This document shows positions 191 through 23,874 of a stretch of DNA of 40,033 bases, piece after piece. The position numbers and the translations under genes are program-made. The stretch's first letter is position 1; every line of letters begins with the position of its first letter. The notes beneath the pieces were generated by a model. The model saw nothing but the letters and a program-made list of their open reading frames with translations. It was not told where the DNA came from and searched no databases. This DNA is from Candidatus Kuenenia stuttgartensis (GTDB lineage Bacteria; Planctomycetota; Phycisphaerae; Phycisphaerales; SM1A02): contig CAMBUI010000003.1 of the NCBI GenBank assembly GCA_945870915.1, positions 1 through 40,033 on the forward strand, given 5' to 3'.

Positions 191-226
191 CCAAAAAGAA
201 CGCCGCCCCGCGCATGCGGGGCGGCG
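191..226 (-). terminator. Rho-independent terminator of the isc operon
   Basis: A perfect 11-bp stem, CGCCGCCCCGC (201-211) with GCGGGGCGGCG (216-226), closes a 4-base loop. Read on the minus strand it is followed by TTCTTTTTGG. It lies 37 bases beyond the iscA stop codon. Confidence 0.85.
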
Positions 227-262
227 TGGATGTGTGCGAGTCTCGACGCGCTTCGGCGCGGA

Positions 263-688
263 TCAGGCGCTGAAGCTCGAGCCGCAGCCGCAGGTCGAGG
301 TCGAGTTCGGGTTGTTGAAGACGAAGCCCGAGCCCATGATCTCGTCCTTGTAGTCGATCGTGGTGCCGTTGAGGTAGAGGTAGCTCTTGGGATCGCAGAC
401 CACGGTGACCGTGAAGGTCTCCGCGGTATCGGTCGCGGTGGCGGTCGCCGTGCCGCCGCCCTGCTCGCCGAGCGCCGCGGTGGAGACCGCCGGCGTGCGG
501 CTGTAGGTGAAGCTCCACGCCTCGTCGGAGTCCTTCTGGACTTCGGTGAGGTCGAGGGTGTAGTTGAAGCCCGAGCAGCCGCCGCCCTTGACGCCCACGC
601 GGAGCTTCATGGTCGAGGCTTCGAAGCCGTGTTCCTGGATGATCTGGTCGATGCGGCGGGCCGCGAGTTCGGTGACGGTGACTGGCAT
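263..688 (-). CDS. iscA: IscA/ErpA-type Fe-S cluster assembly protein with an internal insertion
   Basis: A-type carrier that receives or passes on Fe-S clusters in the cytoplasm. The 141-residue product keeps the three cysteines of the family: C38 in GGGCSGF, and C133 and C135 in the C-terminal CGCGSSF. IscA proteins are usually near 107 residues. The excess is one insertion, roughly residues 57-89, between two strands of the fold. It ends in a low-complexity stretch GGGTATATATDT. An extra cysteine, C98, follows it. The start has a good ribosome site, GAGAGGAC, a few bases upstream. It is the last gene of iscS-iscU-iscA, 55 bases after iscU, and is followed by a strong terminator. The family is certain; whether it acts more like IscA, ErpA or SufA cannot be told from sequence. 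Confidence 0.9.
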   Translation of the reverse strand: MPVTVTELAARRIDQIIQEHGFEASTMKLRVGVKGGGCSGFNYTLDLTEVQKDSDEAWSFTYSRTPAVSTAALGEQGGGTATATATDTAETFTVTVVCDPKSYLYLNGTTIDYKDEIMGSGFVFNNPNSTSTCGCGSSFSA

Positions 689-743
689 GGTGGTTGTCCT
701 CTCTCGGTCGGGCCGCCCTCGGCGCGACCGGTCGATGCGCGGA

Positions 744-1175
744 TCAGTGGGCGGCGGCGGTGGCGGTCGACTCGGCCGCGACGCCGTTCTTCTTCTTGTA
801 GTCGGCGATGGCGCTGCGGATCGAGTCCTCGGCGAGCACCGAGCAGTGGATCTTGACCGGCGGGAGGCTGAGCTCCTCGACGATCTGGGTGTTCTTGATC
901 GCGAGCGCGTCGTCGATCGACTTACCCTTGATCCACTCGGTGGCGAGCGAGCTCGACGCGATGGCCGAGCCGCAGCCGAAGCACTTGAACTTGGCGTCCT
1001 CGATGACGCCCTGCTCGTTGACCTTGATCTGGAGCTGCATCACATCGCCGCACTCGGGGGCGCCGACGATGCCGACGCCGACATCCTTGCGCGTCGCCAC
1101 GTCCTTGGACGTGCCGAAGCTGCCGACGTTGCGGGGGTTCTGGTAGTGGTCGATGACCTTGTCGCTGTAGGCCAT
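744..1175 (-). CDS. iscU: Fe-S cluster assembly scaffold IscU
   Basis: Scaffold on which a 2Fe-2S cluster is built from sulfur given by IscS. The 143-residue product is a full-length IscU. Expected ligands are present: C42 and D44 in ECGDVM, C68 in FGCGSAIASSSL, and H110-C111 directly after the chaperone-recognition motif LPPVK (104-108). C65 is an additional cysteine beside the conserved one. The C-terminal tail after residue 131 is a short Ala/Thr-rich extension. It is the middle gene of the operon, separated from iscS by five tandem hairpins. No hscA, hscB, fdx or iscR lies beside it. The ribosome site is weak (GAAAGGGA). Confidence 0.95.
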   Translation of the reverse strand: MAYSDKVIDHYQNPRNVGSFGTSKDVATRKDVGVGIVGAPECGDVMQLQIKVNEQGVIEDAKFKCFGCGSAIASSSLATEWIKGKSIDDALAIKNTQIVEELSLPPVKIHCSVLAEDSIRSAIADYKKKNGVAAESTATAAAH

Positions 1176-1239
1176 GGTGTGGTCCCTTTCAAAGCGCGGC
1201 GTTGTGCGCGCGGAGTTCTGCGTTGCTTTCTCACGCTCA

Positions 1240-1430
1240 GGATCCGGCGAGTACTTCGCCGGATCCGTGAATCCTCGACTCAGGATCCAGCGAGTCCTTC
1301 GCTGGATCCGTACTTCCCCCAGGATCCAGCGAGTACTTCGCCGAATCCGTGCTTCCCCCAGGATCCGGCGAGTACTTCGCTGGATCCGTACTTCCCCCAG
1401 GATCCAGCGAGTACTTCGCTGGATCCGTAC
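1240..1430 (-). repeat. Five tandem 39-bp palindromic units between iscS and iscU
   Basis: Five hairpins begin at 1240, 1283, 1322, 1361 and 1400, a spacing of 43, 39, 39 and 39 bases. Each has arms GGATCC[A/G]GCGA and TCGC[T/C]GGATCC, 11 bp, around a 5-base loop, mostly GTACT. A short spacer, mostly GTACTTCCCCCA, joins them. The first unit is A-to-G in one arm and T-to-C in the other, so pairing is kept; units 3 and 4 carry mismatches. The array starts immediately after the iscS stop codon and lies wholly within the presumed iscSUA transcript, ending about 65 bases before iscU. A role in mRNA processing or stability is inference. Confidence 0.9.
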
Positions 1431-2669
1431 TCAATGCGTTTGCCACTCGATCTTCGACACGTCGATGCCCTCCTTGTGGAGGTCCCACAGGGGGCTCATC
1501 GTGCGGAGATGGTTGACCGCCTTCACGATGCCCTCGATCGCATAGTCGATCTCCTCCTCGGTCGACCAGCGGCCGAGCGAGAGTCGGAGGCTCGAGTGCG
1601 CGAGCTCGTCGCCCACGCCGAGGCTCTTGAGCACGTAGCTCGGCTCGAGGCTGGCGCTGGTGCAGGCCGAGCCCGACGAGCAGGCGATGTCCTTGATGCC
1701 CATGAGCAGCGACTCGCCCTCGACGAAGCCGAAGCTGATGTTGAGGATGTGCGGGACGCGGCGCTCGAGATGGCCGTTGACCTGCGTGACCTCGAGGCGC
1801 GAGGAGAGCTCGCGCTCGAGCTTCCGGCGGAGATTCAGCAGGCGCTCGTGGTCGGTGTCCATCTCCTGCAGCGCGAGCTCGCAGGCCTTGCCGAGGCCGA
1901 CGATGCCGGTGACGTTCAGCGTGCCCGAGCGCATGCCGCGCTCGTGGCCGCCGCCGTCCTGGATCGCCTCGAGGCGCACGCGCGGGTTGCGGCGGCGCAC
2001 ATAGAGGGCGCCGACGCCCTTGGGGCCGTACATCTTGTGACCCGACCACGACATGAGGTCGATGTGGTCCTTCTCGACATCGGTCGGCATCTTGCCGACC
2101 CACTGGGTCGCGTCGGTGTGGAAGATCACGCCGCGCTCGTGGCAGAGGGCGCCGATCTCGGGCACCTCGTTGATGGTGCCGATCTCGTTGTTGGTCCACA
2201 TGATCGACACCAGGATGGTGTCGTCGCGCATGGCCTCGGCGACCATCTGGCGGGTGATCACGCCGTCGGCCGGAGGCTGCAGGAAGGTGACCTCGAAGCC
2301 CTCGTTCTGGAGGCGCTTGCAGGGGTCGAGGACGGCCTTGTGCTCGTGGGCGGCGGTGATGATGTGACCGCGTCCGGTCTGGCCCTCGGGCGCCTTCGCG
2401 TACATGCGCGCGGCGCCCTTGATCGCCAGGTTGTTCGACTCGGTGGAGCCGCTGGTCCAGACGATCTCCTTCGGGCTCGCGCCGATGAGCGCGGCGGCCT
2501 GCTCGCGGGCGCGATCGACGGCGTCCTCGCCCTCCCAGCCGAACTTGTGGTTCCGGCTGGCGGAGTTGCCGAACTTCTCGGTGAAGTACGGCAGCATCGC
2601 CTCGACCACGCGGGGGTCGGTGCGGGTCGTGGCGGCGTTGTCCATGTAGATGGGCAGTTTGACTGCCAT
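1431..2669 (-). CDS. iscS: Cysteine desulfurase IscS
   Basis: PLP enzyme that takes sulfur from cysteine, leaving alanine, and passes it to IscU. The 412-residue product aligns with IscS from end to end. The PLP lysine is K212 in [10 protein letters not shown], the catalytic cysteine is C336 in [10 protein letters not shown], and H110 lies in HEHKAVLD. The closing region ([13 protein letters not shown], then SPLWDL and IEW) is that of E. coli-type group I IscS rather than SufS. The ribosome site GAGGAG lies just upstream of the ATG. It is the first gene of the operon, divergent from panC across 165 bases. Confidence 0.97.
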
Positions 2670-2747
2670 CGGAATCTCTCCTCAGAAGGTGGTGATTGGC
2701 CGCGCGGAGCCGCCCCCTCGGGCGACGCCTTGTTGCGACCAAGTCTC

Positions 2748-2753
2748 ATCATA
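2748..2753 (-). promoter_or_regulatory. Candidate -10 element of the isc operon
   Basis: TATGAT on the minus strand, five of six matches to TATAAT, lies about 80 bases before the iscS start in the divergent iscS/panC gap. No convincing -35 hexamer is at the right distance. Confidence 0.3.
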
Positions 2754-2792
2754 GGGCTTCGACGGTGTCGGGAGAGCGGAGTCGGTGTCCGT

Positions 2793-2798
2793 TAGAAT
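2793..2798 (+). promoter_or_regulatory. Candidate -10 element of panC
   Basis: TAGAAT, four of six matches to TATAAT with TA and AT kept, lies 36 bases before the panC start. No clear -35 element is seen. Confidence 0.35.
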
Positions 2799-2834
2799 CG
2801 GGTTTTCGAGTTTCCTCAGGAGCGAGCCCCCACC

Positions 2835-3683
2835 ATGCGCATCATCGAAGACCCCGCCGAACTGCAGGCTCCCGACTTGTGCGGCTGCGGGTTCGTACCC
2901 ACGATGGGCGCGCTCCACGCCGGCCATGGCTCGCTCGTGACCCGCGCGCGGGCCGACGGGCGGCCCGTGGTCGTGAGCATCTTCGTGAACCCGACCCAGT
3001 TCGGACCCAACGAGGACTACGCCCGATATCCCCGGACGCTCGACTCCGACTGCGCGCTGCTGGAGCCGCTTGGCGCGGCGGCGGTCTTCGTTCCGCCGGT
3101 GGAGGCGATCTACCCCAACGGGCTGGCGGCGGCACGGATCGAGTCGGAGGCCATCGCGCTGCCGGCGGTCGCCACCGCGCCGGGGCTCGAGGACGCGTGC
3201 CGGCCGGGGCACTTCGGCGGCGTGGCGCTGGTGGTCGGACGGCTCTTCGACCTGGTCCGGCCGAGCGCGGCGTACTTGGGCGAGAAGGACTACCAGCAGC
3301 TCCGCCTGGTGCAGGACATGGTCTCCGCAGACCGGCCGCGCTACGGCGAGCTTCGCATCGTGCCCTGCCCCACCGTGCGCGAGGGCGACGGCCTCGCGAT
3401 GTCGAGCCGCAACCGCTATCTCTCCAGCGACGAGCGGACCGCCGCGATCGCGCTCGCGCGGGCGCTGCAGGTGGCGCATTCGGCGCAGCGGGTCGAGACC
3501 GCCGAGCGCCTGATGCGCGAGACGCTCGAGTCGTTCGGCCTCTCGACCGAGTACGCCGTCGTGCGCGATGCGCGCACGCTGATGCCGGTGAAGGGCTTCG
3601 AACAGCCGACGCGCGCGCTGATCGCCGCCCGGCTGGGCGCGACGCGGCTGATCGACAACGCCGCGATGACGGTCTGGCGCTGA
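2835..3683 (+). CDS. panC: Pantothenate synthetase
   Basis: Joins pantoate and beta-alanine with ATP to make pantothenate, the precursor of coenzyme A. The 282-residue product has the family landmarks: PTMGALHAGH (22-31), the HIGH-like nucleotide site; NPTQF (52-56); RPGHF (123-127); GEKDYQQ (149-155); and REGDGLAMSSRNRYLS (182-197), the KMSKS-like region. The length is normal and a ribosome site CAGGAG precedes the ATG. No panB or panD is nearby, so it is not in a pantothenate operon here. It is divergent from iscS, and the next gene downstream is unrelated. Confidence 0.96.
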   Translation: MRIIEDPAELQAPDLCGCGFVPTMGALHAGHGSLVTRARADGRPVVVSIFVNPTQFGPNEDYARYPRTLDSDCALLEPLGAAAVFVPPVEAIYPNGLAAARIESEAIALPAVATAPGLEDACRPGHFGGVALVVGRLFDLVRPSAAYLGEKDYQQLRLVQDMVSADRPRYGELRIVPCPTVREGDGLAMSSRNRYLSSDERTAAIALARALQVAHSAQRVETAERLMRETLESFGLSTEYAVVRDARTLMPVKGFEQPTRALIAARLGATRLIDNAAMTVWR

Positions 3684-3712
3684 CGCGCGCGGCGCGCCAC
3701 GACGCAAACGGG

Positions 3713-3762
3713 GTCGAATGCGCGGGAAAAGTGCACCGCCTCGGGGAGAGGCTGCATTCGAC
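3713..3762 (+). other. Nested inverted repeat between panC and the thioredoxin-fold gene
   Basis: Outer arms GTCGAATGC (3713-3721) and GCATTCGAC (3754-3762) pair perfectly over 9 bp. Inside, GCCTC (3738-3742) and GAGGC (3748-3752) pair around the loop GGGGA, next to the 3' outer arm. The 5' side keeps 16 unpaired bases. There is no T-run, so it is not an ordinary intrinsic terminator. It ends 27 bases before the next start codon and could be an RNA element or an operator. Confidence 0.5.
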
Positions 3763-3765
3763 AGG

Positions 3766-3776
3766 TACACTTCCGC
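3766..3776 (+). promoter_or_regulatory. Candidate -10 element TACACT-TCCGC
   Basis: TACACT followed by TCCGC lies 18 bases before the ATG at 3790. It resembles the elements at 5231, 15070 and 33581, which share TANNNT followed by TCGC. Confidence 0.4.
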
Positions 3777-3789
3777 CTCGGAGCACACC

Positions 3790-5055
3790 ATGATCAAGAA
3801 CCGCCTCTTCCTCCTCGGTCTCTCGCTCGCCGCCTGCATCGCCCTCGCGGGTCCGATCGCGGTGGGCAACGCCCCCGCGTCGGCGCAGCAGGACTCCGGC
3901 AAGGAATCCCCCGAGAAGGACGGCTCCGGCAAGCGCGGCGAGAAGCCCTCCGGCCGCGCCGCCAAGGACGAGCGCGAGGCCGCCCGCGCCAAGGCCAAGT
4001 GGTTCGAGAAGCTCGAGAAGGAGGACCGCGCGGCGGTCGACGCCGCGGTCGGCTTCGCCGCTCCCGCGATCCCCGAGTCGGTCGAGTTCATCAACGCGAA
4101 CTTCAAGGACCTCAAGGAGCTCCGCGGCAAGGTCGTGGTCATCCAGACCTTCACCTCGAAGAACGCCGGCGGGCTGGTGGCGGTCGAGAAGACCGTCGAG
4201 AAGGTCAAGGGCGTCGGCACCGAGGCCAAGATCTCCGCCGATGACCTGGTGCTGATCGCGATCCACACCCCCGAGGCCGCCGACAAGGCGAAGGCCGCGA
4301 TCGAGAAGCGCAAGCTCGAGCTCCCCATCGTGGTCGATGCCGACGGCGCCCTCTGCGACGCGCTGGGCGCGTACCGCCGGCCGATCGCCTACATCGTCGA
4401 CCGCCAGGGCAACCTGCGGTACGCCGGACTCAGCGGCGAAGGCATCGCCGCCGCGGTGAAGGAGCTCGCCGCCGAGAAGTTCGACCCGCAGGTCGAGGCC
4501 CGCAAGCGCGAGGAGAAGCCGCTCGACGCGACCGTCGCGTTCCCCGAGTTCGGCGGATCTGTGGGCAGCGCCGCCGACCTGCGCGGCAAGCCCGGCCCCT
4601 CTCCCGCGATCCAGAAGTGGTGGAACCACGAGCCGAACATCCAGGGCAAGCTCATGGTGGTCGACTTCTGGGCCACCTGGTGCGGCCCGTGCCGCGCGGC
4701 GATCCCCCACATGAACGAGATCGCCCGCGCCTACCCGCAGGACGTCGCCTGCATGGGCATCTCCGACGAGACCAACTCGAACTTCGACGAGGGCGTGCTC
4801 AAGCACCGGCTCAACAAGGGCGACTTCGCCTACGCGGTGGGCATCGACCCGCAGGCGCGCATGAAGAACGCCTTCCAGATCCGCGGCATCCCGCATGTCG
4901 CGATCATGTCGTCGGACGGCATCGTCCGCTGGCAGGGCCACCCGATGTCGCTCAACGCCGACGTCATGAACCAGCTCATCGCGGCGAACCGCGCGCTGCT
5001 CGCGAAGAACGGCGTCGGCGGCGCGGCGAACCGCTGGTCGAAGACGAAGCGCTGA
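3790..5055 (+). CDS. Exported TlpA/redoxin-family protein with two thioredoxin folds
   Basis: The start at 3790 gives a typical Sec signal peptide: basic MIKNR, a hydrophobic core to about residue 28, and a likely cut after ASA (about residue 32). A charged Lys/Glu-rich linker spans about 35-80. Two thioredoxin-like domains follow. The first, about 95-230, has FTSKNAGG where the active-site cysteines should be, so it cannot do dithiol exchange. The second, about 245-410, has FWATWCGPC (active cysteines 298 and 301) and the cis-proline region RGIPHVAI. The total is 421 residues. An extracytoplasmic thiol-disulfide or reducing role is expected from the family; the substrate is unknown. An in-frame start further upstream at 3718 would spoil the signal peptide. 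Confidence 0.85.
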   Translation: MIKNRLFLLGLSLAACIALAGPIAVGNAPASAQQDSGKESPEKDGSGKRGEKPSGRAAKDEREAARAKAKWFEKLEKEDRAAVDAAVGFAAPAIPESVEFINANFKDLKELRGKVVVIQTFTSKNAGGLVAVEKTVEKVKGVGTEAKISADDLVLIAIHTPEAADKAKAAIEKRKLELPIVVDADGALCDALGAYRRPIAYIVDRQGNLRYAGLSGEGIAAAVKELAAEKFDPQVEARKREEKPLDATVAFPEFGGSVGSAADLRGKPGPSPAIQKWWNHEPNIQGKLMVVDFWATWCGPCRAAIPHMNEIARAYPQDVACMGISDETNSNFDEGVLKHRLNKGDFAYAVGIDPQARMKNAFQIRGIPHVAIMSSDGIVRWQGHPMSLNADVMNQLIAANRALLAKNGVGGAANRWSKTKR

Positions 5056-5062
5056 GGCCGGC

Positions 5063-5175
5063 GAGGCGGGACCACCTCGCGCCGGGGGGCGTGATCACCT
5101 TGCGCCGGTGAGGCGTGATCACCTCGCGCCGGTAAGGCGGGACCACCCCGCGCCGGTGAGGCGTGATCCCTCCGC
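5063..5175 (+). repeat. Five tandem units of about 24 bp
   Basis: Units start at 5063, 5086, 5110, 5134 and 5158, each beginning [G/A][A/G]GGCG and continuing with GGACCAC or TGATCAC, then CTCGCGCCGG. Copies differ by a few bases and the last is degraded. The array starts 8 bases after the stop codon of the thioredoxin-fold gene and fills the first half of the 211-base gap before the methyltransferase gene. Confidence 0.8.
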
Positions 5176-11474: not shown

Positions 11475-11540
11475 CGTGCGACGAGTGTCGCGAACGGTCG
11501 GGGCACCCGCAAGACCGAGGCGCCAGATTGGCGGATTCCG

Positions 11541-11592
11541 GCACGCGGGGCTGGCACGCGGGGCTGGCACGCGGGGCTGGCACGCGGGGCCG
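11541..11592. repeat. Four exact or nearly exact 13-bp tandem units
   Basis: GCACGCGGGGCTG is repeated at 11541, 11554, 11567 and 11580, the last ending CCG instead of CTG. The array lies in the divergent gap between the carboxypeptidase and the ChaN-like gene. It is one of the least degraded arrays of the window. Confidence 0.9.
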
Positions 11593-23681: not shown

Positions 23682-23738
23682 GACATCCACCGGCCCGAGC
23701 CACGCCCGCGTCCGCGCGGGTGCGGCGACGGCCGAACC

Positions 23739-23788
23739 GACAACGATCCGACAACGATCCGACAACGATCCGACAACGATCCGACATC
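23739..23788. repeat. Four and a half 11-bp tandem units between dcd and nrdJ
   Basis: GACAACGATCC is repeated exactly at 23739, 23750, 23761 and 23772, with a partial fifth copy, GACATC. A GC hairpin CCCGCG/CGCGGG lies shortly before it at 23705-23720, without a T-run. The rest of this 193-base gap holds nothing else I recognise apart from a ribosome site, AGGAAG, before nrdJ. Confidence 0.9.
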
Positions 23789-23874
23789 GAAACGAACCCG
23801 CCAGCCCCAATCCCGTCCAGCCAGTCCGCAGCAACCTCTCTCCGCCCGCTCGATCGCGCAGGAAGCCCTAGAAA

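Follow-up and report, generated by a model that had tools for sequence, protein, structure and literature searches.

Introduction

Intercistronic hairpins of bacterial operons have been described operon by operon, and repeated palindromes as scattered REPs. In the iscRSUA operon of Escherichia coli, an intercistronic structure involving RyhB gives the cistrons different mRNA fates (PMC3896431), and the galE E-hairpin is located at a cistron end within an operon (PMC9239205). REPs usually exceed 100 copies per genome (PMC2817692). Those of E. coli are numerous, alternate in orientation within BIMEs and come as close as 15 nt to a stop codon in about 11% of cases; copies less than 16 nt away can cause ribosome stalling and reduced translation (Liang 2015, as cited in PMC12306157). 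Members of the GTAG- and CGTC-tagged REP superfamilies have been reported in Planctomycetes (PMC3733652). In yeast, AGNN substrates of Rnt1p combine a loop starting with A-G, which serves as an identity element, with a stem of free sequence (PMC8708148).

Here we analyzed a row of five hairpins between iscS and iscU in a window of 40,033 nucleotides, which is an entire contig from the draft genome of an uncultured planctomycete (2.73 Mb, 265 contigs, 82.9% complete). By its sequence features, the hairpin family resembles intercistronic mRNA hairpins and stop-proximal REPs, yet it is not a REP by the tests made. The E. coli isc structure also stands between isc genes, but it separates iscR from iscS, requires an sRNA and belongs to a single operon in the account of PMC3896431. 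The galE hairpin shares the position at a cistron end, whereas PMC9239205, as far as its account goes, deals with one operon and no constant-loop family. Like E. coli stop-proximal REPs, which may act on translation or mRNA (PMC12306157), the hairpins described here are palindromic and start a few nucleotides behind stop codons; in contrast to them, they occur in few copies and one orientation, start no more than 15 nt past the stop codon in 30 of 41 arrays, and have a constant loop on a free stem. They are short intergenic palindromes, as are the GTAG/CGTC superfamilies described in PMC3733652, but untagged, of low copy number and without a conserved stem sequence. The likeness to Rnt1p substrates is an analogy only, since here an AGNAC pentaloop closes an 11-bp stem in a bacterium. 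A search of Rfam at the gathering score with eight loci gave no match, and a known RNA family was rejected on this basis. No description of an AGNAC hairpin element was found in the literature covered, which leaves out most subscription journals.

Five tandem hairpins between iscS and iscU

The preliminary description of this DNA reported five near-identical 27-base palindromes in the iscS-iscU gap, and all five were confirmed at the positions listed in Table 1. Their common mRNA form is approximately (U/C)AC-GGAUCC-NNN-GA-AGNAC-UC-NNN-GGAUCC-UG(A/G), with a hairpin of 27 nt, 11 bp and a 5-base loop A-G-N-A-C. The array begins at the iscS stop codon, as had been claimed, with the first stem 4 nt past it on the minus strand. 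The proposed 39-base period applies to four of the five hairpins and fails for one (spacings 43, 39, 39 and 39); TRF reported a period of 39 with 4.9 copies and a score of 282, the maximum in the window. The paired change noted earlier in one unit was also found, the unit at 1240-1266 having G-C where those starting at 1283 and 1400 have A-U. Of the other units, that at 1361 contains an A.C mismatch and that at 1322 differs by G.U.

Table 1. Positions of the hairpins and neighbouring features in the window
Feature	Position	Strand	Remarks
Hairpin 1 (nearest iscS stop)	1400..1426	-	11-bp stem, loop AGUAC
Hairpin 2	1361..1387	-	loop AGUAC, single A.C mismatch within stem
Hairpin 3	1322..1348	-	loop AGUAC, stem with G.U pairs
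Hairpin 4	1283..1309	-	loop AGGAC
Hairpin 5	1240..1266	-	loop AGUAC, G-C replacing A-U (paired change)
iscS-iscU gap, array-bearing	1176..1430	-	255 nt
iscS (cysteine desulfurase), upstream cistron	1431..2669	-	NCBIfam
iscU (scaffold), downstream cistron	744..1175	-	NCBIfam
iscA/erpA-type gene, last of gene row	263..688	-	NCBIfam
Terminator-like hairpin with T tail, 3' of iscA-type gene	200..227	-	terminator scan; differs in kind from the five hairpins

A single hairpin unit has a folding energy of -21.1 kcal/mol. The whole gap folded as RNA with z = -8.4, none of 200 shuffled sequences being equally stable, and stem-pair covariation exceeded that of shuffles; folding with covariation testing had been proposed in the preliminary description. 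The tandem units could also pair with one another in the folded gap. No valid second copy of the hairpin was present elsewhere in the window, in agreement with the earlier observation.

Distribution in the genus and beyond

A search with the array DNA revealed three further units between rpsK and rpoA in the same genome, and matches in 10 of 15 other genomes of the genus. The window genome also contains other relatives. With a maximum of two mismatches, the pattern GGATCC-N3-GAAGNACTC-N3-GGATCC occurred at 55 places in 12 of the 16 genus genomes, whereas the reversed pattern gave no match in the same search. A covariance model (R1) built from 27 hairpins matched 14 of the 16 genomes at E ≤ 0.05, with 0-19 matches per genome; 150 candidates were scored in each genome, so that counts of weak matches are lower bounds. 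Copies scoring at least 26.9 bits were called strong, and weaker matches were excluded from all position counts. This gave 88 strong copies in 45 arrays from 13 genomes. In a midpoint-rooted tree of ribosomal proteins, the three genomes with no strong copy (G001, G009 and G015) fall outside the clade that the other 13 form. A wider model based on 23 stems gained little: some of its borderline extra matches fell at gaps already found, tuf in G010 and rpsJ in G007, and others were false ones within coding sequence. The palindrome count across the genome, which the preliminary description had set as a test of its reading, thus showed few copies in a handful of gaps and not the scatter of an ordinary REP.

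Of 80 iscS-iscU loci, 54 were examined, the other 26 being incomplete or from distant relatives. The hairpin was present in the gap of 10 of these 54 records, with a variant in one additional record, and the gaps of farther relatives lacked it. The records are metagenome-assembled planctomycetes, some derived from ponds or lakes. In the outgroup genome G009 (locus L050), the gap contains a tandem pair of hairpins that resemble the AGNAC hairpin in their flanks and outer stem but have a different loop (GAGGGGACCTC); this pair is perhaps a precursor or sister form. Several farther relatives (L065-L072) have A+T-rich direct repeats around AAGTTTGA in this gap in place of hairpins.

Outside the genus, a search of 151 family genomes, 10 of which belong to the genus, gave one weak match in each of 11 non-genus genomes. 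Five of these 11 matches overlap called genes; all were treated as chance, and spread beyond the genus was rejected. A DNA search of 24 genomes from the same order gave one weak match. In 815,255 bases comprising stretches of two genomes and the window, no AGNAC hairpin stood behind a stop codon beyond the window array (775 kb of other sequence), indicating that the element is sparse and local. On these sequence searches, the family was found only in one group of planctomycetes.

Position and orientation relative to genes

Genes around the copies were called using a codon-usage script. All 88 strong copies were intergenic, and none was antisense to both neighbours. The upstream gene lay on the same strand for 83 copies; two copies, both in G012, were located in the leaders of dnaK and of an unnamed gene, the gene upstream being on the opposite strand, and three at contig ends had a same-strand downstream gene. 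Each of the 45 arrays was confined to a single strand, with no BIME-like alternation of orientation. Tandem copies were present in 24 arrays, up to a maximum of five, with a centre-to-centre spacing of mostly 36-44 nt (one G012 array, which sits at two contig ends, was possibly counted twice). An upstream gene on the same strand was present for 41 arrays, and in 30 of these the first stem started at most 15 nt past the stop codon, often at 3-8 nt. For one array (G006, contig C264), the closest called upstream gene was 1483 nt away, and the true upstream gene is probably a nupC missed by gene calling.

The upstream gene was iscS in 11 genomes, rpsK in seven, rpsC in five, an amino-acid dehydrogenase gene in four (one from a fragment only), nupC in three and probably four, tuf in two with a weak third in G010, and rplF in two. 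Further cases were found behind rplB (strong in G012, less so in G000 and G008), rpsJ in G005 (with weaker or different stems in G000, G002 and G007), groEL in G000 (weak in G008) and pdhB in G014 (at the limit in G012), and behind prepilin-type genes at two gaps in G012. From the identity of these genes, we infer that they are heavily used. Their codon bias among the sampled genes reached the 99th percentile for groEL, the 98th for tuf and the 85th for iscS; iscU, which lacks the hairpin, ranked higher, and ribosomal genes with a hairpin did not rank above those without one.

At locus L182 (positions 430-4173; G000, contig C11), groEL, the hairpin, groES and a second groEL-like gene, named from its sequence only, follow each other on one strand. 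In the ribosomal protein clusters L252-L267, intergenic gaps are long, often 50-390 nt, leaving room for hairpin elements.

Constant loop and freely changing stem

Three checks made no use of the covariance model, namely the survey of 815,255 bases, the pattern search and a scan that used no motif. Of these, the pairing of free stem columns in the pattern search and the motif-free scan are independent of how the hairpins were selected. In the free NNN columns of the pattern search, 104 of 111 cells were paired, compared with a shuffle mean of 64%. The motif-free scan covered 247 of 338 ribosomal-protein gaps, fetched via the RpsC protein only; the 91 excluded gaps were shorter than 40 nt or came from three contigs that had been fetched for hairpin matches. 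Sense hairpins whose loop has 5 nt numbered 57, compared with 3.1 on average in shuffled gaps, and 20 of the 57 carried an AGNAC loop, which occurred neither in 100 shuffles nor on the antisense strand.

Among the distinct matches with exactly two mismatches, both changes fell on partner positions in 12 of 21, and the pair was restored in 11 (P = 8e-11, with related sequences that are not independent). Stem-pair covariation above shuffled sets is the behavior of a structured RNA element, and in 23 hairpins picked for differing stems all 11 pairs varied on both sides while 95.7% of cells were paired. Two of the hairpin sets used for covariation, one of them these 23, were chosen partly for pairing and loop, so that their counts lean towards structure.

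In 75 full-length copies, the loop G was present in all 75, the last C in 74, the first A in 72 and the fourth A in 71, counts that are favored by the model used for finding the copies. The middle base was T, G, C or A. In the window genome, rpsM and rplE are followed by hairpins with unrelated stems and an AGTAC loop, and rpsJ by one with an unrelated stem and the loop AGTGC. Flanking bases were mostly UAC or CAC on the 5' side and mostly UGA or UGG on the 3' side. Wobble pairs (18 G.U and 11 A.C) did not clearly favor the sense strand, and their count does not decide in favor of RNA.

Inheritance of the arrays

Arm letters were 78.9% identical between orthologous copies (the same gap in different genomes), 70.6% between paralogous copies and 69.7% between unrelated ones, a difference reached by none of 2000 label shuffles. 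Copies in the same gap of different genomes thus resemble each other more closely than those from different gaps of a single genome, so they are inherited in place and have long resided where they are now found. On the tree, the iscS-iscU hairpin is explained by one change. The other gaps need two or three, indicating that gaps also gain or lose the hairpin.

Possible function and alternative explanations

The copies lie in the sense orientation only, keep a constant loop and follow stop codons, all of which points to action at the RNA level. We tentatively propose, as the reading we favor and one that may well hold although it falls short of probable, that the five hairpins belong to a genus-level family of sense-strand elements that work in mRNA at the upstream cistron's 3' boundary, where they would influence stability or processing. 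The A-G-N-A-C loop could be read by a protein or fold in a fixed way, and the tandem hairpins would set the point of trimming or protection in the polycistronic mRNA. In this way the upstream cistron of a long operon would acquire a stable 3' end within the operon, an effect that additional tandem copies might reinforce; in the window, the iscS mRNA would be stabilized or delimited relative to iscU-iscA. An intercistronic structure of comparable role in E. coli iscRSUA (PMC3896431) speaks for this reading. Several results count against such a 3'-boundary role. Many of the genes bearing the hairpin (rplB, rpsC, rpsJ) are needed in the same amount as their downstream neighbours, sister genomes can lack the hairpin at the same gap, and the codon bias of ribosomal genes, the wobble counts and the ability of tandem units to pair with one another weigh on the same side.

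A different action on the same transcript is conceivable, since a stem 3-13 nt past the stop codon could meet the terminating ribosome, slow termination and lower or time the output of the upstream gene. The short distance to the stop in the 30 arrays would agree with the 15-nt rule for E. coli REPs (PMC12306157, citing Liang 2015), and it fits a 3'-boundary element as well. The latter is favored by the copies located well past 15 nt in 24 of 45 arrays, and 11 of the 41 arrays begin farther than 15 nt from the stop. A road-block would need no constant loop, and slowing the most used genes of the cell seems costly; we regard a translation brake, the close rival of the 3'-boundary reading, as unlikely. 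Cleavage by RNase III, with the loop as the recognized feature by analogy with the AGNN tetraloops of yeast Rnt1p, would agree with the A-G-N-A start of the loop and the free stem sequence. However, the 11-bp stem is shorter than both the 13-bp Rnt1p minimum and the 12-bp minimal E. coli substrate, and bacterial RNase III is not loop-specific in the account of PMC8708148, making this proposal very improbable. Equally poor prospects attach to an intrinsic terminator or attenuator, or to a DNA palindrome bound as a duplex, which we consider highly unlikely. The stem is stable and GC-rich, and at least four T occur within 8 nt after it in 13 of 88 copies, but TTTT follows only one of the 88, and the terminator scan reported the hairpin at the end of the isc row and none of the five. 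Intrinsic termination was rejected for the missing U-tract and the absence from that scan, while a duplex DNA site would not require a fixed strand.

The hairpins might also be a nearly neutral fossil, left by a small palindrome that a single-strand-specific Y1 transposase spread into transcribed gaps, with some paired changes produced by template-switch correction. Tandem growth, the gain and loss implied by two to three tree changes for five gaps, and Y1_Tnp genes in 13 of 16 genomes (12 above the cut-off) are consistent with this origin. Elements spread by Y1 transposases can have a strand-specific orientation. Against it, copies from one genome resemble each other no more than unrelated copies do (70.6% versus 69.7%), there are just 0-19 model matches per genome (E ≤ 0.05, weak ones being a lower bound) and none in the 775 kb of other sampled sequence, and the GTAG/CGTC tag is absent. 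The best model score at the four Y1_Tnp loci examined, of 28, was 15.4 bits, which is not a good match, and G011 and G013 bear arrays with no Y1_Tnp match, a weak point as both are draft genomes. As an explanation of the family we judge this unlikely, although a mobile REP-like origin is possible for the first colonisation of the gaps and template-switch correction could have added paired changes. An ordinary scattered REP was rejected by copy number, orientation, the missing tag and the low similarity within genomes.

These results bear unevenly on the preliminary interpretation, in which selection and a role as a barrier or protein target fit and a dosage role specific to isc does not. Of selection and arm-to-arm copying, the two causes offered for the paired changes, the former agrees with the constant loop, the sense-only orientation and the place behind stops; copying may add paired changes but leaves loop, strand and position unexplained. 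An exonuclease barrier or protein target, as suggested there, would be consistent with the same three features. An isc-specific device for setting IscS against IscU is contradicted by the same hairpin behind many other genes, some of them ribosomal and needed equally with their neighbours, and a unique isc device was rejected because of the copies at other gaps.

If the hairpins act on mRNA, the ribosomal, EF-Tu, GroEL and Fe-S operons of Planctomycetota would have a point of post-transcriptional control in common. What has been retained across the divergence of 13 genomes is a hairpin of constant loop and free stem, in one orientation, behind the stop codons of growth-machinery genes. It is a more doubtful extension that one candidate RNA-binding protein of the clade binds A-G-N-A-C behind the stops of ribosomal, EF-Tu, chaperonin, PDH and Fe-S genes, jointly setting mRNA life or translation termination, with stems drifting freely as long as they pair.

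Other repeats in the window

A second, unrelated tandem array occupies positions 5057-5172, directly 3' of the stop codon of a thioredoxin-like gene (3790-5055, plus strand). Its unit measures roughly 24 or 47 bases and contains palindromic GTGATCAC cores, and no further copy was found in the genome. Clean tandem repeats are also present at 23733-23790 (an 11-base unit, CGATCCGACAA, repeated 5.3 times) and at 11540-11590 (a 13-base unit repeated 3.9 times).
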